A stretch of DNA of 64,000 nt, taken from Spirochaetales bacterium (lineage in GTDB: Bacteria; Spirochaetota; Leptospiria; Leptospirales; Leptonemataceae). Under the pieces are notes generated by a model that worked only from the letters and a program-made list of their open reading frames with translations, did not search any database and was not told the DNA's origin. Position 1 is the stretch's first letter, and every line of letters begins with the position of its first letter. The translations under genes and the position numbers were made by a program. Below are positions 33,967-62,452 of the stretch, one piece after another. Location of the stretch: NCBI GenBank assembly GCA_015075425.1, contig JABTUL010000001.1, positions 2,356,001 through 2,420,000 on the forward strand, written 5' to 3'.

Positions 33967-34758
33967 ATGGCTGAAGCAATGACCACAGAGTCGAAGAAAG
34001 TTTTCCTGTACGGCAAAAAGCAGGGCCAGAAATACCTGACGGTCCATCCGCTGCGGCTCTTGGCCGCCGTCCAAAATCAGGCCGAACTCTGGAATCAGGA
34101 TTTGCCGGATACCAGGCTCACAGTCCAGACGGCTGAGGAATTTCCGCCGCCCGGTCAACGCCTGAGCGATGCCGGTGAGCTGATTGGACTATCCACTCTG
34201 GAGCGCGTCATGGCCGGCGAAATGACGCTGGAGCCCGGGCAGAAGATCGAAGATGGCCAGATTGTCAGCAAGACCGATCTCGAGCTGCTCAAGGCCGGGC
34301 TACTTACGCAGGCTGATTTCAAGCAGCAGCGGATCCGCAGTTTTCACGAGCAGTACAACGCCCATATTCAGGCTTTCGTCGCGGCCTATCCGGCCCAGCG
34401 CCGGGAGGGCTGGCCGACTCTCGTCATGGAGGCTCAAACCTGGCAGGATCTGCTGGATTCGACCTCTGAATTGGACCCAGAGGATCGCGCCGCGCAGATA
34501 AATGAGGCCATGTCCCGGTTTCCGCAGCTCACGCATGAGGGCAGCAGCTCAATCGCTGAAATATCGGATCTGGCCACGCGAGTGCTCTTCAAGCGATCCG
34601 TCTATGGCGCCTTTTCGGGCCTGTGCAACCGCGCTCTGGATCAATCGGTAGCCGGATTGCAATCAGTTTCAGAGGCCCAATCTATCGATTTATTTTATTC
34701 GGCCTGCATGGCCATTGAACTCTCATTACCAGCTCTCCCGGAGGCACAAAATGGATAA
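33967..34758 (+). CDS. Tail-fibre-region protein
   Basis: 263 residues. Middle part acidic and charged (GELIGLSTLERVMAGEMTLEPGQKIEDGQIVSKTDLELL), C-terminal half helical. It lies between tail I and the fibre gene and overlaps the fibre start by 8 bp. Probably a fibre-baseplate adaptor; family not recognised. Confidence 0.5.
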   Translation: MAEAMTTESKKVFLYGKKQGQKYLTVHPLRLLAAVQNQAELWNQDLPDTRLTVQTAEEFPPPGQRLSDAGELIGLSTLERVMAGEMTLEPGQKIEDGQIVSKTDLELLKAGLLTQADFKQQRIRSFHEQYNAHIQAFVAAYPAQRREGWPTLVMEAQTWQDLLDSTSELDPEDRAAQINEAMSRFPQLTHEGSSSIAEISDLATRVLFKRSVYGAFSGLCNRALDQSVAGLQSVSEAQSIDLFYSACMAIELSLPALPEAQNG

Positions 34759-36220
34759 ACTTTCAGGCATCACTTTTCCTGCGCATGGTAAATCGGTCTT
34801 CAAAGAGGATTGGGAGCGCGAGCAGGTTGCCAAAGCGCAGGAGGTCATCGATCGCGATCTGGACCTGCACGGTTCCGGCATTGTCTCCGGGGGTGCCATT
34901 GCAGCCGGGGCCAGTCCCAACACAATTGACCTCACTGAAACGGTCATCGCCTACAACGCCGCTGGCCAGCGGATAGTGGTCGATCCGGCCCCGACAGGCA
35001 TTGCCGTTCCAGCTGACGCCACCAGCAAAATCGTCCTGCGCCACGCATTTGAGGAGACTGAAAACACGGCCCCCAACAATCCCGGTGACCCGATCATCTG
35101 GCGCGACAATAGCTATGAAATTGTGGCCCGCCAGGGTGATTTGCAAGATGGTGACGTCCCGCTGCGTGAAGTCACGGCATCCGGTGGCACGGTTACTCCG
35201 GGCACCGATCTGCGTCAGCGCAAAGGCATTTCTGGGGAACATATTCAGCTGGAAACGCTGGACGCGGACCACTTTCCAGACGAAGAGCTGCCGGACAGCA
35301 AGCTTTTGCCGGCCCATAAAATCGGTGATCTGGCGGACCTCCTAGCGGAGATTGATGCCGGAATTTCTGCCCCCAAAAGCATAATCAAGGCCCTGAACTG
35401 GATCCACCTGAATCGGCACGATGTCGGTGACCTGAAATCGATGTATTACTACAAGGCCCCTTCAGCCGCGCATCCATGGTTCTGCCTGAATGCCGCCGAC
35501 CAGGTCATCATGGAATCTGCCTGGCCGGATCTGGTAGCATACCTGCGCGCAGAACCGTGGCGCTACCTGGCCACAGGATCCAATAAGAGCGCGTTCGATA
35601 TAGCTTCGTTTTCCATTACATCCAACGTGGTCACACTGACTCTGACCAACACCACGGCTGAGAATGCCTTCCTGGCCGCCCTGCTCGAAGAGCGTCAGGT
35701 CCATGGCTCTTACTCGAACTTTCCTTCAATCCGGCTCAATGAAGCCGTTGGATCCGTTCCAGTCGGAGACTATACGCCCACAGAAGTCGATGCGGTGAGC
35801 CGCCTGATCCGGTTTGCCTATACCACAGCCAACGATTCAGGATCTCCAGGAGGAAAGACAGTGTCCTGCTACAAGCATCGGGTGCCGGGCTTCACCGACA
35901 GGGCCTACCATTACGCCGTGCAGGGCCGTGTGCTGGTGGCCGCTGAGGATTCGGATCATGAGGTGTTTGGTGGGGGGAGGAGAAGGGATAGGTTCCAGGG
36001 GCACTATCATACCCTATCTAACGGAACGGCTGTCTGGCGACAGCCAGGCTCGGGCGGATTCGGTGGGATGCCACCCGACAGCTCTAACGCTACTTATGCA
36101 TTGACCGTGGCCGCCCCGATCACAGATGGGACCAACGGCACTCCCCGGACAGGAAAAACAACAGACCCGCGTGCGCAAGGTGTTTATCTATACAAGTATG
36201 GGCGCATATTCAATGCGTGA
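34751..36220 (+). CDS. Tail fibre / receptor-binding protein with collar-type tip
   Basis: 489 residues from the ATG at 34751, with GGAGG upstream. The N-terminal ~190 residues are beta-rich (IVSGGAIAAGASPNTIDLTETVIAYN). The C-terminal tip has RDRFQGHYHTLSNGT and ITDGTNGTPRTGKTTDPRAQGVYLYKYGRIF, the usual end of collar-type fibres in Mu-like and other prophages. It is the last phage gene. A purine-rich stretch (about 35967-35993) encodes GGGRRRDR. No reverse transcriptase gene is nearby, so no diversity-generating element. Confidence 0.75.
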   Translation: MDKLSGITFPAHGKSVFKEDWEREQVAKAQEVIDRDLDLHGSGIVSGGAIAAGASPNTIDLTETVIAYNAAGQRIVVDPAPTGIAVPADATSKIVLRHAFEETENTAPNNPGDPIIWRDNSYEIVARQGDLQDGDVPLREVTASGGTVTPGTDLRQRKGISGEHIQLETLDADHFPDEELPDSKLLPAHKIGDLADLLAEIDAGISAPKSIIKALNWIHLNRHDVGDLKSMYYYKAPSAAHPWFCLNAADQVIMESAWPDLVAYLRAEPWRYLATGSNKSAFDIASFSITSNVVTLTLTNTTAENAFLAALLEERQVHGSYSNFPSIRLNEAVGSVPVGDYTPTEVDAVSRLIRFAYTTANDSGSPGGKTVSCYKHRVPGFTDRAYHYAVQGRVLVAAEDSDHEVFGGGRRRDRFQGHYHTLSNGTAVWRQPGSGGFGGMPPDSSNATYALTVAAPITDGTNGTPRTGKTTDPRAQGVYLYKYGRIFNA

Positions 36221-36283: not shown

Positions 36284-36355
36284 AAGAGGATGGGCCAGTC
36301 CGTAAAAAGAGCGGCCATCCCGTGTCGCCATCCGTGGACTCCCGCGGGCGCACTG
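36284..36355 (+). other. Remnant of the cassette interrupted by the prophage
   Basis: AGAGGATGGGCCAGTCC and the following ~60 bases match the stretch before the family-B site at 48815, so this is the 3' part of a B-type cassette cut by the phage. Its 5' part, expected to begin GTTATTTG, should be at the phage's left end. Confidence 0.6.
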
Positions 36356-36562
36356 CAAATAACTACGGATTCCTGCTGCGGGCCTCCGCATGCGCTCCGG
36401 CTCCTCGGGTCGGCGCACTCTCCGCGGAACGGCTCACCAGTTCGCCTTTTCCGCTCCGTGCGGATGCGCGCCAGTTTTTGGTTGATTTTTATGGCGCGCA
36501 CCGCATCGTGCTTGACCACATTTGCCCTGCGGGCAAACGTCAGGAATCCTACACGTTATGCG
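36356..36562 (+). repeat. attC site, family B (B1)
   Basis: Opens CAAATAAC and closes GTTATGCG. Inner boxes GGATTCCTG and CAGGAATCC pair; hairpins lie between. Confidence 0.85.
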
Positions 36563-37042: not shown

Positions 37043-37256
37043 ATTCGCACAAGGGGACGTGGTGGAACTTAAAAGCGGAGGTCCAAGGATGACCATACAA
37101 GAAATTTCCAGCTGGAGGCCAACTCTTGGGCGCCATGATTATCCCGCCGACCAGGCAAAGTGCTATTGGTTTGATGGAAATGAAATTAAAGAAGCAATAT
37201 TTCAGCTACAGTCACTTAAAAAAGTGATTGAAGCAAATACCGGCTCCATCGCATAA
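37035..37256 (+). CDS. YodC/DUF2158 family protein (cassette 1)
   Basis: 73 residues from the GTG at 37035 with GGAGG upstream. FAQGDVVELKSGGPRMTIQEIS and KCYWFDGNEIKEAIFQLQSL match the DUF2158/YodC family, small beta-barrel proteins of unknown function common in cassettes and prophages. The stop codon overlaps the AAC of attC A1. Confidence 0.7.
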   Translation: MDEFAQGDVVELKSGGPRMTIQEISSWRPTLGRHDYPADQAKCYWFDGNEIKEAIFQLQSLKKVIEANTGSIA

Positions 37257-37488
37257 CTTTGCGGCTTAGCGCTCACTCCCTTCGCTATGCGCTCCGGTCG
37301 CTCGGCCCTGGTCTTCTCCCCGCCACCATTCCGGGAAAAGGGGTTGCAAAAGCCTTAAGGAAAGCCGGAATGGCGGCGGGTCGTGCGGATGCGCGCCCGG
37401 GTTGGTGGATGCGTATGGCGCGCACCGCACCAGACTGCGGGCAAATTGAGCCTCACGGCCCAACTTCGCTAAGCCGCGTCGTTATCTG
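37250..37488 (+). repeat. attC site, family A (A1)
   Basis: Opens CGCATAAC, closes GTTATCTG. Inner boxes GCGGCTTAGCG and CGCTAAGCCGC are perfectly complementary, with TTT/GTC as unpaired spacer. This arrangement is shared by all family-A sites below. Confidence 0.9.
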
Positions 37489-37520
37489 AAATGGGCGCAT
37501 AGTCGGGGGTAAGAACGAAC

Positions 37521-38510
37521 ATGTTTCCGGACTTAAGCAACCCTATGGATTGGATAGCACGCTGGGTCCGGTGCTCAGACCAGGCCCGTAGAAAAGGACT
37601 GCTCAGCCTCGAGGCTTTCGCTATAGAGAATCCGGACACAATCCAAGAGATCACCTTCTGCCGTGCGATGCGTTTGATTCTCGACGGAACTGACCCGGAA
37701 TTGGTGCGACGAATCATAACCAACACTCTGGAAGGCCACAGGGAGACCTTGAATTATCGCTGGCATGTATATAAGCATGCGGTTCTACTTGCGCAAGAAA
37801 CCTTAGCTCTTGAAGCCCGGATTGAGGAAATCTTGATCCCCGGTCACCCACAGAATACTTTCATTGTCAGTAGTCTGTTGCAGGGCAAAACTTCAGCATT
37901 CCAAGATGCATGTCTCGCAATTGCGAAAAGACAACCCGTACGCCAAGAACTCCTGGAGAATCAATTTGGATTTTATTGGAAAGCCACAGAGCAAAGCCTT
38001 ACAATAATTCTTGATGGCGCTCTGGCCGTTCAATCCGGTGACCACCCAAGGTTCGTTTTGGCGACCTTAAACGCCATAGTGAACCCTGAGGTGGACATCG
38101 CGTTATCAGCAATATTGCTGGAGACATTACCCACCGATTCCGCCGACCCTGCGCATTCCCTCTCAACGGAAGAGATTGACGCTCTACTATTCCACGGCGA
38201 GAGGAGAGCGAAGCAGCTTTCAGACATAGTCTTCAGCAATCTTATTGCGCAGCTTGACCAGCGCGCGCTGCAGCGAGTTATCCGTGATACGGAAGCAGAA
38301 ACACTGTTATTGGCATTGGCCACTTCTTCCCGCCCGGCCGTTGAGAAAGTGTTGTCTAGCATTAGTGACCGGGCAAAACTGCAGATATTGAATGACCTGC
38401 AGGTATTCCATCATATCGAAACTACAGCTTCTGAAACGGCCAAATCTAAGATTATCGGGACTATTCAGCGTTTGCTTGACGCCGGAGAAATCGTTTTTGA
38501 TAACCACTGA
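37521..38510 (+). CDS. MotA-like/FliG-C chimeric protein (cassette 2)
   Basis: 329 residues, no transmembrane segment or signal peptide. Residues about 8-72 (WIARWVRCSDQARRKGLLSL, then FCRAMRLILDGTDPELVRRII) match the cytoplasmic segment of the MotA stator. Residues about 222-326 (LSDIVFSNLIAQLDQRALQR, LLLALATSSRPAVEKVLS, DRAKLQILNDLQVFHHIE, IIGTIQRLLDAGEIVF) match the FliG C-terminal torque domain. Those two parts meet at the rotor-stator interface of the flagellar motor. A soluble chimera could modulate torque or act as a brake. The combination is, to my knowledge, unusual. Function is inferred. Confidence 0.75.
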   Translation: MFPDLSNPMDWIARWVRCSDQARRKGLLSLEAFAIENPDTIQEITFCRAMRLILDGTDPELVRRIITNTLEGHRETLNYRWHVYKHAVLLAQETLALEARIEEILIPGHPQNTFIVSSLLQGKTSAFQDACLAIAKRQPVRQELLENQFGFYWKATEQSLTIILDGALAVQSGDHPRFVLATLNAIVNPEVDIALSAILLETLPTDSADPAHSLSTEEIDALLFHGERRAKQLSDIVFSNLIAQLDQRALQRVIRDTEAETLLLALATSSRPAVEKVLSSISDRAKLQILNDLQVFHHIETTASETAKSKIIGTIQRLLDAGEIVFDNH

Positions 38511-38523
38511 CTTGCGCCCACTT

Positions 38524-38762
38524 CAGATAACTTTGCGGCTTAGCGCTCACTCCCTTCGCTATGCGCTCCGGTCGCTCGGCCCTGGTCTTCTCCCCTCCAC
38601 CATTCCGGGAAAAGGGGTTGCAGAAGCTTTGATCAAAGCCGGAATGGTGGAGGGTCGTGCGGATGCGCGCCCGGTCTGGTGGATGCGTATGGCGCGCACC
38701 GCACCAGACTGCGGGCAAATTGGGCCTGTCGGCCCTACTTCGCTAAGCCGCGTCGTTAGCCG
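38524..38762 (+). repeat. attC site, family A (A2)
   Basis: Opens CAGATAAC, closes GTTAGCCG. Confidence 0.9.
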
Positions 38763-38782
38763 CCATGCAGGCATATTATTAA

Positions 38783-39877: not shown

Positions 39878-40116
39878 CGGCTAACTTTGCGGCTTAGCGC
39901 TCACTCCCTTCGCTATGCGCTCCGGTCGTTCGGCCCTGGTCTTCTCCCCGCCACCACTCCGGGAAAAGGGGTTGCAAAAGCTTTGACGAAAGCCGGAATG
40001 GTGACGGGTCGTGCGGATGCGCGCCCGGTTTGGTGCATGCGTATGGCGCGCACCGCACCAGACTGCGGGCAAATTGGGCCTGGCGGCCCAACTTCGCTAA
40101 GCCGCGTCGTTCTCCG
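39878..40116 (+). repeat. attC site, family A (A3)
   Basis: Opens CGGCTAAC, closes GTTCTCCG. Confidence 0.9.
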
Positions 40117-40159
40117 CCATTGACTATATATTGATCGAACGCAAATGCATGAGGAAAGA

Positions 40160-40950
40160 ATGCGCCGTACCGTTTCAGTGTTAATCCTATTGTGGCTATT
40201 CGGCTGCAGACCTCCTGCAGCACCAATCGCGACATTTGAAACCCTGTTTCTGCCTGAACATTATGCCGGTAAAGCGAACGACCCAGAGCTCGGGAAAGAC
40301 ATTATCAGGAATTTCTCGAACTCAAGGATAGAAACCCCAAGGCCGCGAAGGACAAGCTCATCGCGGCTATTCGGCATCTTCCTGAAGGCTCGTATTACTA
40401 TGCCCTTGGTTCTTTATTGTGGCTTGACTCACCAGATTTTGCCCAAAAGGCCCTTCGGATAGCTTTTGACAAAGGTGGGGCAGAGGCACACTTATTGCAT
40501 GCAACCTTGCCTGCCTTTATAGCTTAGAAGAAAATATGAAGAGTCAGAATTTTCCTCCAGAAAGCCATTGAGCAGGGATACCTGAATTACAGGCATGTTC
40601 ACAGCGATCCAGATCTGGCGGCACTCCGTAGAGTATCAAACTTTCAAAGTTTCCGGTATTCGCTATTCACGGGCGGGCGGCGGTGATCAGATTAATCGGT
40701 ATTTGCCCAGACGGGAGTATGTAGAACACCGAGCGGAAGGTATTTCTTGCGTCAAAAAACGTGATCAAGATTTCGTCCTACGTTCAAGAGGACGGAAGTT
40801 TCTACATATTGAACGGGAAGAAAGAAGAGATTCGAACCTCTGGAAGTCTTATCCAGTCCAATAACCATAAATACGATTCATAGCATAAAGAGTGAATGCG
40901 AGCGCTATGATCGCCCGGAAATCTTCATGGCTGGTCCCGATTGTCCATGA
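40160..40950 (+). pseudogene. Broken copy of the repeat lipoprotein gene (cassette 4)
   Basis: Nearly identical to the intact gene at 53354-54154 but with several frame-changing indels: one A fewer in CGGGAAAAG near 40295, one A fewer in GAAGAAAAATATG, and shortened T and A runs further on. A few substitutions also occur. Most differences are loss of one base from a homopolymer, so sequencing error in a repeated region is as likely as real decay. Confidence 0.7.
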
Positions 40951-40973
40951 TTTCTGAGCAAATGTGTCAACGG

Positions 40974-41208
40974 CGGAGAACTTTGCGGCTTAGCGCTCAC
41001 TCCCTTCGCTTTCCGCTCCGTTCGTTCGGCCTGGTCTTCTCCCGCCACCATTCCGGGAAAGAGGTTGCAGAAGCCTTGAGAATAGCCGGAATGGTGGCGG
41101 GTCATCGGATGCGCGCCCGGTTTGGTGGATGCGTATGGCGAGCACCGCACCAGACTGCGGGCAAATTGGGCACGGCGGCCCAACTTCGCTAAGCCGCGTC
41201 GTTTAGCG
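40974..41208 (+). repeat. attC site, family A (A4)
   Basis: Opens CGGAGAAC, closes GTTTAGCG. Slightly shorter than other family-A sites because several C, G and A runs have lost a base relative to the copy at 54178. Confidence 0.85.
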
Positions 41209-42218: not shown

Positions 42219-42257
42219 CCATTGCTTCTCTACTTTCGGGATCTCGGAGGACATTCT

Positions 42258-43091
42258 ATGACTATGCCACTGAAGCACATTTTCTGTTACGCAATAGGAT
42301 TATTAACTTCCATTTTTGTTGCGACTTTTCTCGCAATCTCTGAAATTCAATCAGAATTTTCCATCTACTCTCTCAGTCTTTGGGTTCTATTTCCGGTCGG
42401 CGCGATACTCTCGGGGTTAGCCGCTGCACTGGGATACTACATAAGTGCTCGATTCGTCCATTTGCTTCCAAACAGACTATTCCTTTTTGTAATCGTGCTC
42501 AATTCGGCAGCTATCTTCTTGTTCATCAATGCGCTACAGTATTTAAGCTATGACTTTCCGCCCGAAATAGGATTCTTTGAATTTCTGCACACCAAGATTA
42601 TGGGAACTTCTGTGCGCCTAATCCGCGGCGGGATTGGCGGAGAGGTAGGTGCTTTTGGCTACATCATATCTTTGACCGAGATTATTGGATTCTCCTTGGG
42701 TGGATTCGCGGTGTATGTTTCACTCGTAAACAAACCGTACTGCCGGAAATGTCAGAAATATATTCACCAGAAGGGACACCAAGAGCACTATTTTGAATCT
42801 GCTGAAGAAAGAAAGCTCGCATCCGATAAAATTACCAAACTTCTATCCCAGGGATCTTTACCTCTCGCAATTTCTGAGCATGCAAATATGGGCCGCCAAC
42901 TACCCCTGGCTAAGGACCAGTATTCCGCGAAATTCGAACTGCAAGCATGCCCACAATGTTCAGATCACTATTTTGCCTTTTCGCAGAGCAATCGCTTGGG
43001 TAGCAAATGGGTATCGGATGCAGAAGAGGTCACAGGTATCTTCTCAGGCCTTGCGACGCTCTACGGTATAAAGAGAAGCAACAGCGCTTAA
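42258..43091 (+). CDS. Four-helix membrane protein with zinc ribbons (cassette 6)
   Basis: 277 residues from the ATG at 42258, with GGAGG upstream. Four transmembrane helices (IFCYAIGLLTSIFVATFLAI; SLWVLFPVGAILSGLAAALG; LFLFVIVLNSAAIFLFINAL; FGYIISLTEIIGFSLGGFAV) precede a cytoplasmic half with CRKCQKYIHQ and CPQCSDHYF, a split zinc ribbon. No known family. A tandem copy follows in cassette 7. Confidence 0.6.
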   Translation: MTMPLKHIFCYAIGLLTSIFVATFLAISEIQSEFSIYSLSLWVLFPVGAILSGLAAALGYYISARFVHLLPNRLFLFVIVLNSAAIFLFINALQYLSYDFPPEIGFFEFLHTKIMGTSVRLIRGGIGGEVGAFGYIISLTEIIGFSLGGFAVYVSLVNKPYCRKCQKYIHQKGHQEHYFESAEERKLASDKITKLLSQGSLPLAISEHANMGRQLPLAKDQYSAKFELQACPQCSDHYFAFSQSNRLGSKWVSDAEEVTGIFSGLATLYGIKRSNSA

Positions 43092-43323
43092 CTTTGCGGC
43101 TTAGCGCTCACTCCCTTCGCTATGCGCTCCGGTCGTTCGGCCCTGGTCTTCTCCCCGCCACCATTCCGGGAAAAGGGGTTGCAGAAGCTTTGAGGAAAGC
43201 CGGAATGGTGACGGGTCGTGCGGATGCGCGCCCGGTCTGGTGGATGCGTATGGCGCGCACCGCACCAGACTGCGGGCAAATTGGGCCTGGCGGCCCAACT
43301 TCGCTAAGCCGCGGCGTTAAGCG
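43085..43323 (+). repeat. attC site, family A (A6)
   Basis: Opens CGCTTAAC, closes GTTAAGCG. Shares the variant GCGGCGTT closing segment with A7. Confidence 0.9.
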
Positions 43324-43362
43324 CCATTGCTTCTCTACTTTCGGGATCTCGGAGGACATTCT

Positions 43363-44185
43363 ATGACTATGCCACTGAAGCACATTTTCTGTTACGCAAT
43401 AGGATTATTAACTTCCATTTTTGTTGCGACTTTTCTCGCAATCTCTGAAATTCAATCAGAATTTTCCATCTACTCTCTCAGTCTTTGGGTTCTATTTCCG
43501 GTCGGCGCGATACTCTCGGGGTTAGCCGCTGCACTGGGATACTACATAAGTGCTCGATTCGTCCATTTGCTTCCAAACAGACTATTCCTTTTTGTAATCG
43601 TGCTCAATTCGGCAGCTATCTTCTTGTTCATCAATGCGCTACAGTATTTAAGCTATGACTTTCCGCCCGAAATAGGATTCTTTGAATTTCTGCACACCAG
43701 ATTATGGAACTTCTGTGCGCCTAATCCGCGGCGGGATTGGCGGAGAGGTAGGTGCTTTTGGCTACATCATATCTTTGACCGAGATTATTGGATTCTCCTT
43801 GGGTGGATTCGCGGTGTATGTTTCCTCGTAAACAAACCCATGCCGGAAATGTCAGAAATATATTCACCAGAAGGGACACCAAGAGCGCTATTTTGAATCT
43901 GCTGAAGAAAGAAAGCTCGCATCCGATAAAATTACCAAACTTCTATCCGGGATCTTTACCTCTCGCAATTTCTGAGCATGCAAATATGGGCCGCCAACTA
44001 CCCCTGGCTAAGGACCAGTATTCCGCGAAATTCGAACTGCAAGCATGCCCACAATGTTCAGATCACTATTTTGCCTTTTCGCAGAGCAATCGCTTGGGTA
44101 GCAAATGGGTATCGGATGCAGAAGAGGTCAGGTATCTTCTCAGGCCTTGCGACGCTCTACGGTATAAAGAAGCAACAGCGCTTAA
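43363..44185 (+). pseudogene. Indel-broken tandem copy of the cassette 6 gene (cassette 7)
   Basis: The copy starts identically to cassette 6, then loses one A and one G near 43700, loses bases near 43830 and 43950, and so falls out of frame after about 110 residues. Again the indels are small and mostly in base runs. The first 534 bp stay open to 43896. Confidence 0.7.
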
Positions 44186-44417
44186 CTTTGCGGCTTAGCG
44201 CTCACTCCCTTCGCTATGCGCTCCGGTCGTTCGGCCCTGGTCTTCTCCCCGCCACCATTCCGGGAAAAGGGGTTGCAGAAGCTTTGAGGAAAGCCGGAAT
44301 GGTGACGGGTCGTGCGGATGCGCGCCCGGTCTGGTGGATGCGTATGGCGCGCACCGCACCAGACTGCGGGCAAATTGGGCCTGGCGGCCCAACTTCGCTA
44401 AGCCGCGGCGTTATGCG
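44179..44417 (+). repeat. attC site, family A (A7)
   Basis: Opens CGCTTAAC, closes GTTATGCG. Confidence 0.9.
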
Positions 44418-45398: not shown

Positions 45399-45630
45399 CT
45401 TTGCGGCTTAGCGCTCACTCCCTTCGCTATGCGCTCCGGTCGCTCGGCCCTGGTCTTCTCCCCGCCACCATTCCGGGAAAAGAGGTTGCAGAAGCCTTGA
45501 GGGAAGCCGGAATGGTGACGGGTCGTGCGGACGCACGCCAGTTTCGGTGTATTCAGATGGCGTGCGCCGCACCAGACTGCGGGCAAATTGGGCCTGGCGG
45601 CCCAACTTCGCTAAGCCGCGTCGTTATTCG
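45392..45630 (+). repeat. attC site, family A (A8)
   Basis: Opens CGCATAAC, closes GTTATTCG. Confidence 0.9.
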
Positions 45631-45663
45631 CCATGCTGCCAGTAAATACCCTGGAGGAACACT

Positions 45664-46095
45664 TTGAAACGTTTATTGATCACCATCCTTATCGCAGCGG
45701 GATTATTCATTGGTTTGCCCACAATGGCTGTCCTCATTTACTATTTGGCGACCTTTGTGGCTGAAAAGCAGTATGCCAATGTTAATGAAAGCAAACCTCC
45801 GACTGGTCCGTTTCGCGAATACCGTTTTTCACCTGACTTTGTCTTGGGATCTGGATCATCCCCCAATTATCGCTATTTGGGAGTATCTATTCTGTACCCG
45901 GAAGAGAATGAGCGGCTACATGCAGAGCTTACGAATAGGTCTGCTCAACTAAGAAATCTGGTCAACTTAACGCTTCAGGGGACAGACCCGACCGCCCATG
46001 CTGATATCGATTTCAAGCGCATTGCAGAGTCACTGAAGGCAAGCTTCAATCAGGTTCTGACGAACGGACCGGTAACAGCAGTGATTCTGAAATAG
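45664..46095 (+). CDS. FliL-like protein (cassette 9)
   Basis: 143 residues from a TTG that has GGAGG seven bases upstream. One N-terminal transmembrane helix (LLITILIAAGLFIGLPTMAVLIYYL) and a periplasmic domain: FREYRFSPDFVLGSGSSPNY, RYLGVSILYPEENERLHAEL, RSAQLRNLVNLTLQGTD, LKASFNQVLTNGPVTAVILK. This order and the closing beta strand match FliL, a stator-associated protein of the flagellar motor. It is slightly shorter than typical FliL. Being on a cassette, it may be an accessory motor modulator. Confidence 0.7.
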   Translation: MKRLLITILIAAGLFIGLPTMAVLIYYLATFVAEKQYANVNESKPPTGPFREYRFSPDFVLGSGSSPNYRYLGVSILYPEENERLHAELTNRSAQLRNLVNLTLQGTDPTAHADIDFKRIAESLKASFNQVLTNGPVTAVILK

Positions 46096-46136
46096 TGAGG
46101 CTTTTTTTTGGACGGTTTTTTCAGCAGGCAGCACGG

Positions 46137-46374
46137 CGAATAACTTTGCGGCTTAGCGCTCACTCCCTTCGCATGCGCTCCGGTCGTTCGGCCCTGGTCT
46201 TCTCCCCGCCGCCATTCCGGGAAAAGGGGTTGCAGAAGCCTTGAGGGAAGCCGGAATGGCGGCGGGTCGTGCGGATGCGCGCCCGGTTTGGTCTATGCGT
46301 ATGGCGCGCACCGCACCAGACTGCGGGCAAATTGGGCCTCACGGCCCAACTTCGCTAAGCCGCGTCGTTATCTG
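46137..46374 (+). repeat. attC site, family A (A9)
   Basis: Opens CGAATAAC, closes GTTATCTG. Confidence 0.9.
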
Positions 46375-47416: not shown

Positions 47417-47728
47417 TTGGCTCGAAACTGGGATGTGCAATTTTCTCCGGAAGCTGTCCGACTTTTCGAAGCCTCTGTGCCAAAGCAATTCCGGTCCCTG
47501 ATATTGAAGGCCGCGCTGGAAAACTGGCGACGGAACCGAACAAACCCGGAAAATCCACGAAACGCCTCTCAGCAGGCCGACCGCCCTATTTTCACGGAAG
47601 GATGTTTGGCAATGCCGGGTCCAAGAGTGGCGCTTCTTTATGTTCTTGAAGAAAATCGTATAGTCGTTTTCTTTGTGGGCGGGAAGGGTCGCAAGACTAC
47701 CGAAGAGATGGTGCAAGAATATGAATAA
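47417..47728 (+). pseudogene. RelE-type toxin copy with garbled middle (cassette 11)
   Basis: Homologous to cassette 25. The N-terminus WDVQFSPEAVRLFEASVPKQF is good, but three single-base losses relative to the other copy put about 35 middle residues in wrong frames before the end (LYVLEENRIVVFFVGGKG) is back in frame. It carries a TTG start (LARNWDV) that the other copy lacks. Confidence 0.6.
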
Positions 47729-48035
47729 ATCCTCGCGTTCCAGAGTTGTAGGCATTCAGGGAGGCCAAGGCCCACCTTTCTGAGTATATCAAGAAGTCCA
47801 GAGATGTTCCCATTGTCATCACAAGCCATGGCAAACCGGAGGCGGTGCTTTTCAATGTCTGATGATCAAGATCCTGAAGACGTCATCCTCTTCACTTCGC
47901 CGGAATTCCAGTCCGCACTGGCCTACCCGGAATCCAAGCTCATCCGAAGTGCGGAATTGTTGAAAATACAATTCTCCGGCGGCCAGACAGAAACCTCCGT
48001 CTGCCAAGGTAAAAACTCGCGTCAACGGCAGATAA
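47721..48035 (+). pseudogene. Phd-type antitoxin copy with frameshifts (cassette 11)
   Basis: Starts MNKSSRSRVVGI as in the cassette 25 gene, then an insertion near 47757 and changes near 47860 and 47965 break the frame. Confidence 0.65.
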
Positions 48036-48257
48036 CTGCGGCTTAGCGCTCACTCCTTCGCTATGCGCTCCGGTCGCTCAGCCTGGTCTTCTCCCGCCAC
48101 CATTCCGGGAAAGGGGTTGCAGGAGCTTTGAGGAAAGCCGGAATGGTGACGGGTCGTGCGGATGCGCGCCAGGTTGGAATCTATGCGTACGGCGCGCACC
48201 GCACCAGACTGCGGGCAAATTGGGCGGCCCAACTTCGCTAAGCCGCGTCGTTATTTG
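48029..48257 (+). repeat. attC site, family A (A11)
   Basis: Opens CAGATAAC, closes GTTATTTG. About 10 bp shorter than the cassette 25 site (A22), mostly by single-base losses in runs. Confidence 0.85.
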
Positions 48258-48814
48258 CAATGCGCCCGAAAGTTATCCGCCGGTCATCCTTGCCCGGCGG
48301 GAAGAAATCTTGAGCTCCGTCGAGAGATGCAGCATCGGATAGCTTTCTTTCGCGGAAAGAATTTGCTGGGCGGTCAGATTTTTCCCAGCGGTCCTTTCCT
48401 GATGGAAAGATACTTCCGGAAGAGCCAGAGATTTCGACTTCGGAAAAATTCACCATGAACCGGGCTCAAATGCAAGAAAGAATTTTGCCAAGGAAACGTA
48501 AGACAAAGCTCCGTTGTTTCGCGAGGGTTTCGTGTCCGGAACGCTACTTGCCTTCTTCAAAAGTTCCTTTCATCCTCCGTATGAAAGAAGAGCACCAGAG
48601 ATCTTTTTCTTTGGAGCCCGGATCATGCATTCCTTTGAACCGCCGGAAGAATGACCCCATTCCCATGTTCGCGGAGAGATCCTACTCGGAATCTCTGGGG
48701 AGATGGTAAAGAAAATCATTGGGCCTTCCAATTCACTGGCACAAGAGGATGGGCCAGTCCCTAAAAAGAGCGGCCATCCCGTGTCGCCATCCGTGGACTC
48801 CCGCGGGCGCACTG
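48258..48814 (+). other. Cassette 12 body without a convincing gene
   Basis: About 560 bp. The only open frame of note (48455-48709) is Arg/Ser-rich and not conserved as protein with the sister cassette 26, although the DNA of both is clearly related (for example TTTCGCGAGGGTTTC). GGAAAGATACTTCCGG-type and other small inverted repeats occur. It may hold an RNA, a promoter or simply be non-coding. Confidence 0.5.
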
Positions 48815-49019
48815 CAAATAACTACGGATTCCTGCTGCGGGCCTCCGCATGCGCTCCGGCTCCTCGGGTCGGCGCACTCTCCGCGGAACGGCTCACCAGT
48901 TCGCCTTTTCCGCTTCGTGCGGATGCGCGCCAGTTTTGGTTGATTTTTATGGCGCGCACCGCATCGTGCTTGACCACATTTGCCCTGCGGGCAAACGTCA
49001 GGAATCCTATCGTTCTCTG
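48815..49019 (+). repeat. attC site, family B (B2)
   Basis: Opens CAAATAAC, closes GTTCTCTG. Inner boxes GGATTCCTG/CAGGAATCC. The cassette start GTTATTTGCAATGCGCCCG is complementary to CGGGCGCACTGCAAATAAC over 19 bases with one mismatch. Confidence 0.85.
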
Positions 49020-53086: not shown

Positions 53087-53310
53087 CGCATAACTACGTT
53101 TGTCCCGCTCCGGGCTTCGACTTCGCTCCGCCCTCCGGTCCGTCGCGCTCGGCCTGCGGCCGTCCGGACTCGGCGCGAGTGGGAGAAATAAAAGGCGCCT
53201 CACCGGACCGCGCTCTGGACAAATTGCAGCATTCGCCGCAATCATTTGGCCTCCGGCCTCATTTTTTGCTTGCTCAAGGCCGCAACTTCGGGAAAACTAC
53301 TCGTTCTCCG
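53087..53310 (+). repeat. attC site, family C (C2)
   Basis: Opens CGCATAAC, closes GTTCTCCG; otherwise as C1. Confidence 0.85.
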
Positions 53311-53353
53311 CCATTGACTATATATTGATCGAACGCAAATGCATGAGGAAAGA

Positions 53354-54154
53354 ATGCGCCGTACCGTTTCAGTGTTAATCCTATTGTGGCTATTCGGCTG
53401 CAGACCTCCTGCAGCACCAATCGCGACATTTGAAACCCTGTTTCTGCCTGAACATTATGCCGGTAAAGCGAACGACCCAGAGCTCGGGAAAAGACATTAT
53501 CAGGAATTTCTCGAACTCAAGGATAGAAACCCCAAGGCCGCGAAGGACAAGCTCATCGCGGCTATTCGGCATCTTCCTGAAGGCTCGTATTACTATGCCC
53601 TTGGTTCTTTATTGTGGCTTGACTCACCAGATTTTGCCCAAAAGGCCCTTCGGATAGCTTTTGACAAAGGTGGGGCAGAGGCACACTTGGCTGCGTACAA
53701 CCTTGCCTGCCTTTATAGCTTAGAAGAAAAATATGAAGAGTCAGAATTTTTCCTCCAGAAAGCCATTGAGCAGGGATACCTGAATTACAGGCATGTTCAC
53801 AGCGATCCAGATCTGGCGGCACTCCGTAGAGTATCCAAACTTTTCAAAGTTTCCGGTATTCGCTATTCACAGGCGGGCGGCGGTGATCAGATTAATCGGT
53901 ATTTTTGCCCAGACGGGAAGTATGTAGAACACCGAGCGGAAGGTATTTCTTGCGTCAAAAACGTGATCAAGATTTCGTCCTACGTTCAAGAGGACGGAAG
54001 TTTCTACATATTGAACGGGGAAGAAAGAAAGAGATTCGAACCTCTGGAAGTCTTATCCAGTCCAATAACCATAAATACGATTCATAGCATAAAGAGTGAA
54101 TGCGAGCGCTATGATCGCCCGGAAATCTTCATGGCTGGTCCCGATTGTCCATGA
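53354..54154 (+). CDS. Lipoprotein with TPR/Sel1-like repeats (cassette 17)
   Basis: 266 residues from the ATG at 53354 with GAGG upstream; a start at 53339 is also open. Signal peptide RRTVSVLILLWLFGC with lipobox Cys at residue 16. Helical repeats follow (KAAKDKLIAAIRHLPEGSYYYALGSLLWL; AHLAAYNLACLYSLEEKYEESEFFLQKAIEQG). A beta-rich C-terminal part holds two Cys (YFCPDGKYVEHRAEGISC). The broken copy is in cassette 4. Confidence 0.75.
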   Translation: MRRTVSVLILLWLFGCRPPAAPIATFETLFLPEHYAGKANDPELGKRHYQEFLELKDRNPKAAKDKLIAAIRHLPEGSYYYALGSLLWLDSPDFAQKALRIAFDKGGAEAHLAAYNLACLYSLEEKYEESEFFLQKAIEQGYLNYRHVHSDPDLAALRRVSKLFKVSGIRYSQAGGGDQINRYFCPDGKYVEHRAEGISCVKNVIKISSYVQEDGSFYILNGEERKRFEPLEVLSSPITINTIHSIKSECERYDRPEIFMAGPDCP

Positions 54155-54177
54155 TTTCTGAGCAAATGTGTCAACGG

Positions 54178-54416
54178 CGGAGAACTTTGCGGCTTAGCGC
54201 TCACTCCCTTCGCTTTCCGCTCCGTTCGTTCGGCCCTGGTCTTCTCCCCGCCACCATTCCGGGAAAAGAGGTTGCAGAAGCCTTGAGAATAGCCGGAATG
54301 GTGGCGGGTCGTGCGGATGCGCGCCCGGTTTGGTGGATGCGTATGGCGAGCACCGCACCAGACTGCGGGCAAATTGGGCCTGGCGGCCCAACTTCGCTAA
54401 GCCGCGTCGTTTAGCG
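54178..54416 (+). repeat. attC site, family A (A14)
   Basis: Opens CGGAGAAC, closes GTTTAGCG; intact twin of A4. Confidence 0.9.
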
Positions 54417-56155: not shown

Positions 56156-56491
56156 ATGATCTTATTGCAAACCTCTTTGATTTTGCGAGCATCTTTTGGA
56201 AACTCTAACCGCTTACTGTCACAAGTGCAGCAGACGGTAGAAAGTGCATCTGCGTCCTTCACTCACGAACCTGACAGAAGTGGAGCTCCAACCGTAGAAT
56301 TCACCTTCTTTGCCTATCCGTTGATAGGGCTTCGCAACTTAATTCACGGTAGTTTACAACCACTCCCCCAAGACCGTATCTTATTAAGAATGAAAGCATC
56401 GCTCATGGAGCATTTACAAGCTTACCTTTCCGTCACTTTGATGGCACTCTGCAGTGGTATTGCAATTGCCCTTGAGGATCGGGGGCCTTGA
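56156..56491 (+). CDS. Unknown protein, first of a pair (cassette 20)
   Basis: 111 residues from the ATG at 56156. Ends with a hydrophobic helix (LQAYLSVTLMALCSGIAIAL). Middle part FTFFAYPLIGLRNLIHGSLQ. Overlaps the next gene by 4 bp, suggesting the two act together. No family known. Confidence 0.45.
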   Translation: MILLQTSLILRASFGNSNRLLSQVQQTVESASASFTHEPDRSGAPTVEFTFFAYPLIGLRNLIHGSLQPLPQDRILLRMKASLMEHLQAYLSVTLMALCSGIAIALEDRGP

Positions 56492-60866: not shown

Positions 60867-61163
60867 ATGCAATTTTCTCCGGAAGCTGTCCGACTTTTCG
60901 AAGCCTCTGTGCCAAAGCAATTCCGGTCCCTGATATTGAAGGCCGCGCTTGGAAAACTGGCGACGGAACCGAACAAACCCGGAAAATCCACGAAACGCCT
61001 CTCAGCAGGCCGACCGCCCTATTTTCACGGAAAGGATGTTTGGCAATGCCGGGTCCAAGAGTGGCGCTTCTTTTATGTTCTTGAAGAAAATCGTATAGTC
61101 GTTTTCTTTGTGGGCAGGAAGGGTCGCAAGACTACCGAAGAGATGGTGCAAGAATATGAATAA
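60867..61163 (+). CDS. RelE-type toxin (cassette 25)
   Basis: 98 residues. FSPEAVRLFEASVPKQFRSLILKAALGKLATEPNKPGKSTKRL, then FHGKDVWQCRVQEWRFFYVLEENRIVVFFVGRKG are the RelE/HigB-like toxin pattern. The N-terminal WDV codons seen in cassette 11 are lost here by a 4-base difference, so the start is uncertain. It overlaps the Phd antitoxin by 8 bp. Confidence 0.75.
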   Translation: MQFSPEAVRLFEASVPKQFRSLILKAALGKLATEPNKPGKSTKRLSAGRPPYFHGKDVWQCRVQEWRFFYVLEENRIVVFFVGRKGRKTTEEMVQEYE

Positions 61164-61473
61164 ATCCTCGCGTTCCAGAGTTGTAGGCATTCGGGAGGCC
61201 AAGGCCCACCTTTCTGAGTATATCAAGAAGTCCAGAGATGTTCCCATTGTCATCACAAGCCATGGCAAACCGGAGGCGGTGCTTTTCAATGTCTCTGATC
61301 AAGATCCTGAAGACGTCATCCTCTTCACTTCGCCGGAATTCCAGTCCGCACTGGCCTACCCGGAATCCAAGCTCATCCGAAGTGCGGAATTGTTGAAGAA
61401 ATACAATTCTCCGGCGGCCAGACAGAAACCTCCGTCTGCCAAGAGTAAAAAAACTCGCGTCAACGGCAGATAA
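61156..61473 (+). CDS. Phd/YefM-type antitoxin (cassette 25)
   Basis: 105 residues. VVGIREAKAHLSEYIKKSRDVPIVITSHGKPEAVLFNVS is the Phd/YefM fold, which binds operator DNA; the tail would bind the toxin. The intact version of the broken copy in cassette 11. Confidence 0.85.
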   Translation: MNKSSRSRVVGIREAKAHLSEYIKKSRDVPIVITSHGKPEAVLFNVSDQDPEDVILFTSPEFQSALAYPESKLIRSAELLKKYNSPAARQKPPSAKSKKTRVNGR

Positions 61474-61705
61474 CTTTGCGGCTTAGCGCTCACTCCCTTC
61501 GCTATGCGCTCCGGTCGCTCGGCCCTGGTCTTCTCCCCGCCACCATTCCGGGAAAAGGGGTTGCAGGAGCTTTGAGGAAAGCCGGAATGGTGACGGGTCG
61601 TGCGGATGCGCGCCCGGGTTGGTCTATGCGTACGGCGCGCACCGCACCAGACTGCGGGCAAATTGGGCTTGGCGGCCCAACTTCGCTAAGCCGCGTCGTT
61701 ATTTG
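61467..61705 (+). repeat. attC site, family A (A22)
   Basis: Opens CAGATAAC, closes GTTATTTG. Confidence 0.9.
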
Positions 61706-62246
61706 CAATGCGCCCGAAAGTTATCCGCCGGTCATCCTTGCCCGGCGGGAAGAATTCACTTTTCTTCGCCGGTAAATTAGGCATTGCAGAGTTTTCTTAG
61801 TGAAAATTTCTGACCGGTCAGAATTTTCCCAGCAGTCTTCCTGAAGGAAAGATGCATCGGGAGGGAGCGAGTTCGGCTTCAGAAAAAATTAGCTGGACAC
61901 CAGCTTCTAAATGAAAAAAATTTTAGCCGGGAAGCGTAAGACCATATTGCCTTGTTTCGCGAGGGTTTCTTGTCCGGACCGCTACTTGCCCTCTTCACAT
62001 ATTCCTTTCAGCCTTCCAACGGAAGCAGAATGCTGGAAACTTAAAGATTTTGGGATAAAGTGTCTCGGCGGAAAGGCAGTAGAGCCATGGAGCATTGTTT
62101 CGTGAAGAGTTCTGGTCCGGATAGTTTGGAGAGGATTGCCAAAGATCGTTGGGCTTCTCAATGTGGCCTGGCAGGATAGGGTCGGCCAGTGCGTGAAGGG
62201 AGCGGCCATCCCGTGTCGCCATCCGTGGACTCCCGCGGGCGCACTG
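61706..62246 (+). other. Cassette 26 body without a convincing gene
   Basis: About 540 bp, related to cassette 12 at DNA level (shared AAAGTTATCCGCCGGTCATC near the start; TTTCGCGAGGGTTTC in the middle). Short open frames (for example 61911-62105) do not conserve protein sequence well between the two beyond CFARVSCP-RYLPSS. Probably non-coding or RNA-coding. Confidence 0.5.
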
Positions 62247-62452
62247 CAAATAACTTACGGATTCCTGCTGCGGGCCTCCGCATGAGCTCCGGCTCCTCGG
62301 GTCGACGCACTCTACGCGGAACGGCTCACCAGTTCGCCTTTTCCGCTCCGTGCGGATGCGCGCCAATTTTGGTATATTTTTATGGCGCGCACCGCATCGT
62401 GCTTGACCACATTTGCCCTGCGGGCAAACGTCAGGAATCCTAACGTTATGCG
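62247..62452 (+). repeat. attC site, family B (B3)
   Basis: Opens CAAATAAC, closes GTTATGCG; spacer TTAC/TAAC between outer and inner boxes. Confidence 0.85.

Follow-up and report, generated by a model that had tools for sequence, protein, structure and literature searches.

A soluble MotA-FliG_C chimera on an integron-like cassette of a spirochaete: a possible clutch or brake of the flagellar motor

The window analyzed here, a stretch of 64,000 nucleotides from contig 1 of a Spirochaetales bacterium, contains a gene which had been predicted from the letters alone to join a MotA-type cytoplasmic stretch with the FliG C-terminal torque domain in one protein devoid of membrane helices. Such a protein would hold both partners of the rotor-stator interface, and the locus thus raises the questions of whether the two halves are what they seem, whether the gene is mobile and what its product might do to the motor. 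The following parts were delineated:

37521..38510, forward strand: open reading frame of 329 amino acids with an ATG start, the soluble MotA-like/CheY-motif/FliG_C chimera (profile and sequence matches)
37539..37751, forward strand: MotA cytoplasmic helices, residues 7-77, with R23 and E31 (NCBIfam NF005997, alignment to host MotA)
37752..37985, forward strand: stretch at the place of MotA membrane helices 3-4, residues 78-155, soluble and of low AF2 confidence
37986..38090, forward strand: MotA C-terminal cytoplasmic helix, residues 156-190, AVQSGDHPR (PDB and host MotA alignment)
38160..38189, forward strand: LSTEEIDALL, residues 214-223, similar to the CheY-P-docking N-terminus of FliM/FliY (host FliM N-terminus, shuffles)
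38229..38495, forward strand: FliG C-terminal torque domain, residues 237-325 (PF01706, E 1.6e-17)

The predicted layout was confirmed by Pfam, NCBIfam, PDB and host comparisons and by hydropathy, and the profile searches named as its check matched both halves, with best E values of 1.6e-17 (PF01706) and 4.5e-9 (MotA-type). FliG_C was the sole significant domain in the Pfam search (64.2 bits, cut-off 23.3), in which the PilZ and glycosyltransferase domains of known brakes were not found, and the FliG_C of PDB sequences aligned to residues 236-326. The FliG model TIGR00207 matched only at its positions 239-328 (56 bits, cut-off 226.7), so that the N-terminal and middle domains of FliG, which serve rotor assembly, were not found in the chimera. 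On the other side, five MotA/PomA/MotP models of NCBIfam matched (the best four at 4.5e-9 to 1.7e-7), one MotA-type model covering residues 3-185, and a phmmer search of PDB sequences aligned residues 8-192 to MotA 77-253; the score against the curated MotA equivalog was 36 bits, with a cut-off of 340. Direct comparison with the proteins of the host gave 40.9 bits for MotA and 35.5 bits for FliG, the best of 1000 shuffles reaching 4.4 and 9.6, respectively. No membrane helix was found in the chimera, the maximal Kyte-Doolittle mean over 19 residues being 1.34 vs. 2.2-2.5 in true MotA. The stretch of residues 78-155 has an HPxN motif and is partly conserved in two relatives. An assembly artefact joining two unrelated halves was rejected, because this arrangement of the parts is seen in other genomes too.

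According to the alignments, R23 and E31 are retained on the MotA side, and on the FliG side R284 and D292 are retained, while the positions of E. coli FliG D288 and R297 are occupied by N and E. We take R23/E31 to be the positions of E. coli MotA R90/E98, and R284/D292 those of FliG R281/D289.

The original prediction overlooked two features: a FliL cassette, described below, and a FliM-like CheY-docking motif at residues 214-223. LSTEEIDALL of the chimera matches LSQDEIDALL of host FliM, both fitting LS-x-[ED]-EIDALL; the host FliM N-terminus reads MTEILSQDEIDALL, and its start in a longer form MTEILSQDEIDALLSAI. The motif is not N-terminal in the chimera and lies internally, between the MotA and FliG_C parts. 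Among 300000 shuffled versions of the chimera, EID[AD]LL appeared in 129 and the full motif in none. A loose form of the pattern, run over the loci examined, matched only FliM/FliY-type proteins and two chimeras, that of the window and a relative in genome G023, the C-terminal end of which reads MSQDEIDDLLGKG. The EIDALL-type motif of FliM/FliY docks CheY-P (PMC9126983), and CheW-domain chemotaxis proteins are encoded by the host.

Structure prediction of the protein alone, also proposed at the outset, yielded a confident model for the MotA part and none for the FliG half, which counts against a clutch. In AF2 modeling of the whole chimera only residues 1-100 and 150-190 were confident, since the alignment held MotA relatives only, and alignment-free prediction of FliG_C by itself was uninformative (pLDDT 47). 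In a Foldseek search the MotA chains of 8UCS ranked first, a result given little weight because the E value was above 0.04.

The second question is that of mobility. The gene is bounded as follows:

37248..37490, forward strand: attC-like site of the preceding cassette (repeat family, start/box comparison)
37482..38755, forward strand: mobile cassette, running from the G^TT point of one recombination site to that of the next (GTT at 37481 and 38755)
38522..38764, forward strand: attC-like site of the chimera cassette (repeat family; bottom-strand fold z -4.95)

Repeats of approximately 230 nt are found on both sides of the gene. Once reverse-complemented, the cassette's own downstream R''-like box TTCAGATAAC is identical to the cassette start GTTATCTGAA at 10/10 bases. 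When, for each interval, the ten bases following the crossover point were compared with the reverse-complemented first box of its last site, the match averaged 9.1 of 10 positions over 22 intervals of the window, and 20000 shuffles never reached 7.9. Such complementarity is the expectation for a circularising cassette. Approximately 55 attC-like sites, all in a single orientation, are located at 2326548-2455374 of contig 1. The flanking repeats and the start/box complementarity bear out the cassette status predicted earlier: the gene of the chimera belongs, as a genuine cassette, to an integron-like array on the chromosome.

A tyrosine recombinase gene (contig 1, 2324384-2325418; L081 1276-2310) precedes the first of the sites found by approximately 1.1 kb. 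Its product scored 168 bits against the IntI model (cut-off 265), with model positions 166-233, the region of the IntI extra patch, unmatched; the recombinase, which heads the array and is extended at its N-terminus, may be an integron integrase of an unusual kind. Its homologues at E <1e-40 are present in 26 of the 48 genomes of the class. The open reading frame following the recombinase gene (L081 2513-3190) recurs at window 56156-56491.

Several other observations were made on the array. Approximately 42 kb inside it (contig 1, 2351522-2393464, including window 1-37464) are free of attC-like cores; a window reading frame at 34715-36220 resembles a phage tail protein, and therefore a prophage has perhaps been inserted among the cassettes. 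A second, different repeat type occurs at window 36284-36551, 48743-49009 and 62176-62442; it may represent recombination sites of a different class and may explain the intervals with poor start/box match. Duplicated cassettes are located at 42222-44198, at 40089-41031 and 53283-54235, and at 47436-48309 and 60868-61757, some with one copy disrupted. Short cassette reading frames between window 46755 and 61473 look by eye like toxin-antitoxin genes (RelE-, Fic/Doc-, HigA- and Phd-like).

The array carries one more motor gene on a cassette of its own:

45664..46095, forward strand: FliL homologue of 143 amino acids (comparison with host FliL, start/box 10/10)

This cassette spans 45624-46367, approximately 8 kb from that of the chimera. 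Its product, not recognized by Pfam, shares 37% identity with host FliL (E 9e-23); FliL genes are common in the family of the host. FliL is a stator-ring protein and supports stators in other bacteria. The host has its own MotA, MotB, FliL, FliF, FliG and FliM, the genes for MotA, MotB and FliL being adjacent. When these six proteins were compared with the array stretches examined, cassette homologues were obtained for MotA, FliG and FliL only, and no MotB, FliM or FliF cassettes were found in these stretches.

Relatives of the chimera were gathered by one search of the class and two of the phylum. The soluble MotA and FliG_C layout is present in nine genomes, and a tenth (G023, L071) has the MotA part and the CheY motif without FliG_C (1e-27 to the chimera). 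In total this makes 10 of 393 genomes of the phylum and 8 of 168 genera (E 1e-36), a patchy distribution which counts against a clutch function. The full-length homologue (G015, L005), from a different genus of the family, is 25% identical (BLASTP 5e-23); the remaining relatives in the class are in G025, G026, G028 and G029, and those outside it in G187, G202 and G220. Apart from the window protein and that of G015, the members with FliG_C are approximately 243-275 amino acids long. In these short members the MotA helices are followed by a short loop where MotA has two membrane helices, and the chain continues with the C-terminal helix of MotA, a linker and FliG_C, with NCBIfam E values of 1.4e-7 to 2.6e-31 for FliG and 2.1e-6 or better for MotA-type models. 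The window member and that of G025 are strongly diverged. In most relatives the CheY motif is missing or cannot be recognised, and no conserved flagellar theme was found among the neighbours of the relatives, both of which count against a clutch as well; the relative in G202 adjoins a chemoreceptor gene, which speaks in favour of one.

No attC-like repeats were found around the gene in G015, G023, G025 and G026, and the relatives inspected sit in the chromosome as ordinary genes. The view of a mobile-cassette protein accordingly holds for this genome and does not extend to the relatives inspected; the protein is not solely a cassette one, and the LIC10244 family is also related to it. Named Leptospiraceae MAGs cluster with the MotA of a family-mate of the host, which by its relatives is probably a spirochaete of the Leptospira side. 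In the FliG_C tree the chimeric parts lie together on the same side of one branch (80/99), and in the MotA tree they form three groups, with a single origin not rejected (AU p 0.32); because of the long branches we give no verdict on one vs. several fusions. A first scan of the genome contigs gave no relative, and the 27 loci of a second scan had the MotA part only, those inspected being true MotA genes. Phage, plasmid and viral collections gave no match to the chimera. Two further loci are of interest in their own right: a stand-alone FliG_C of 96 amino acids in G029 (L072 2189-2476; TIGR00207, E 8.7e-22) is a free torque domain, and in G025 (L078 5833-8237) three LIC10244-like genes stand in tandem, the first being a MotA-FliG_C chimera and the others degenerate.

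The link to LIC10244 comes from NCBIfam NF047717, the model of this family of Leptospira hypothetical proteins, which the short chimeras match at E 1e-14 to 1e-3 (18-55 bits): G025 at 1.1e-14, G220 at 9.6e-14 (residues 9-210 against model 8-201), G187 at 4.1e-12, G202 at 5.9e-9, and G026, G028 and G029 more weakly. The cut-off is 475 bits and every match is far below it, and therefore the short chimeras are relatives of the family, not members; the window protein itself had no match. The likeness covers as many as 200 residues, at roughly corresponding positions, and from the family model we infer that LIC10244 itself is a MotA-FliG_C chimera. In the open papers searched LIC10244 was found only in one table, where this L. 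interrogans protein, listed as cytoplasmic and hypothetical, has the value 6.61 among the genes changed in a perRA/perRB double mutant in rat chambers (PMC8638967).

What, then, might the protein do? A brake, clutch or decoy, as put forward in the original prediction, appears to be the best-supported kind of function, judged by homology and by an engineered MotA-FliG_C fusion. In that Clostridium sporogenes construct, FliG_C fused to the end of MotA is held between adjacent MotA cytoplasmic domains with the torque helix in the cavity (PMC11302681). Soluble proteins are also known to act as brakes, EpsE on FliG (PMC3000366) and YcgR on MotA and FliG (PMC10140304). We consider, with confidence a little short of even, that the chimera could act on the motor as a clutch or brake by imitating, in soluble form, both faces of the rotor-stator contact; the domain matches far above the controls, the retained torque-contact residues, the EIDALL-type motif and the FliL homologue on another cassette of the array are consistent with this. 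The FliG_C part would be taken up by the MotA pairs of real stators in place of rotor FliG, and/or the MotA part would cover rotor FliG, and the stators would then push less on the rotor and torque would fall. CheY-P bound to the EIDALL-type motif might tune this competition, e.g., by opening an inhibitory contact between the halves, and carriage on a cassette, in an array with a FliL-like cassette, would let the integron adjust motor output.

The same domains allow the opposite effect, which we regard as unlikely: a positive adaptor, its MotA part on rotor FliG and its FliG_C in the grip of the stator, could stabilise or recruit stators and raise torque. A single chain holds both binding faces, and FliL, the other motor cassette, is stator-supporting elsewhere; a soluble bridge, however, would have to break at each rotation step, and competition is simpler. 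That the domains have been co-opted as scaffolds in a task unrelated to the motor, or that the cassette is a decaying passenger with no function, we find rather improbable. The lack of conserved flagellar neighbours beside the relatives, the high divergence of the window member and that of G025, and the only published datum on the LIC10244 family, its induction in the perRA/perRB double mutant (PMC8638967), fit such a reading, but the reading frames are intact, the torque-contact residues are kept in several lineages and the layout is common to several families. It is doubtful that the protein is a CheY-P sink or chemotaxis adaptor, altering switching or adaptation through the EIDALL-type motif and leaving the torque interface untouched: the motif is nearly exact to that of FliM and the L071 relative combines it with the MotA part alone, yet most relatives lack the motif and have both motor domains. 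An anti-phage device acting on motility, also suggested originally, is highly improbable and was not borne out, since despite the toxin-antitoxin-like genes of the array neither PADLOC nor the phage and viral collections gave a match; of the earlier interpretation, the layout and the cassette status are supported.

Returning to the clutch or brake, the fuller picture is one that we hold tentatively: the chimeras would form an unrecognised spirochaete family of rotor-stator mimics, the window member being a CheY-gated clutch, mobile beside a FliL cassette, in an integron-tuned motor. The chimera would be the first natural protein found with both torque-interface partners, resembling an engineered fusion, and it could serve as a compact soluble tool for studying stator-FliG engagement and the action of CheY-P outside the C-ring. 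For the Leptospira family LIC10244, so far uncharacterised, it likewise points to a function. In the open papers searched we found no description of a MotA-FliG_C chimera family and no report of motor tuning as integron cargo.

Compared with known systems, the chimera shares with MotA/PomA the cytoplasmic torque helices, the C-terminal helix and the R90/E98-equivalent residues, but it is devoid of all four membrane helices and of a MotB partner gene and scores far below the curated cut-offs. With FliG it shares the C-terminal torque domain, above the Pfam cut-off, but not the N-terminal or middle domain, and therefore it lacks the known rotor anchorage. The FliM/FliY peptide is shared as a motif, but internally and without a FliM domain. 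EpsE, YcgR and MotI, for which action on FliG and/or MotA has been demonstrated or proposed, are soluble like the chimera; they use a glycosyltransferase or PilZ fold, whereas the chimera is built from the motor domains themselves. A counterpart in layout is the C. sporogenes MotA(1-262)-FliG(239-333) fusion (8UCS), in which FliG_C is linked to the end of MotA in the same order of partners; that fusion, however, is a laboratory construct with membrane helices and MotB, whereas the chimera is natural and soluble.
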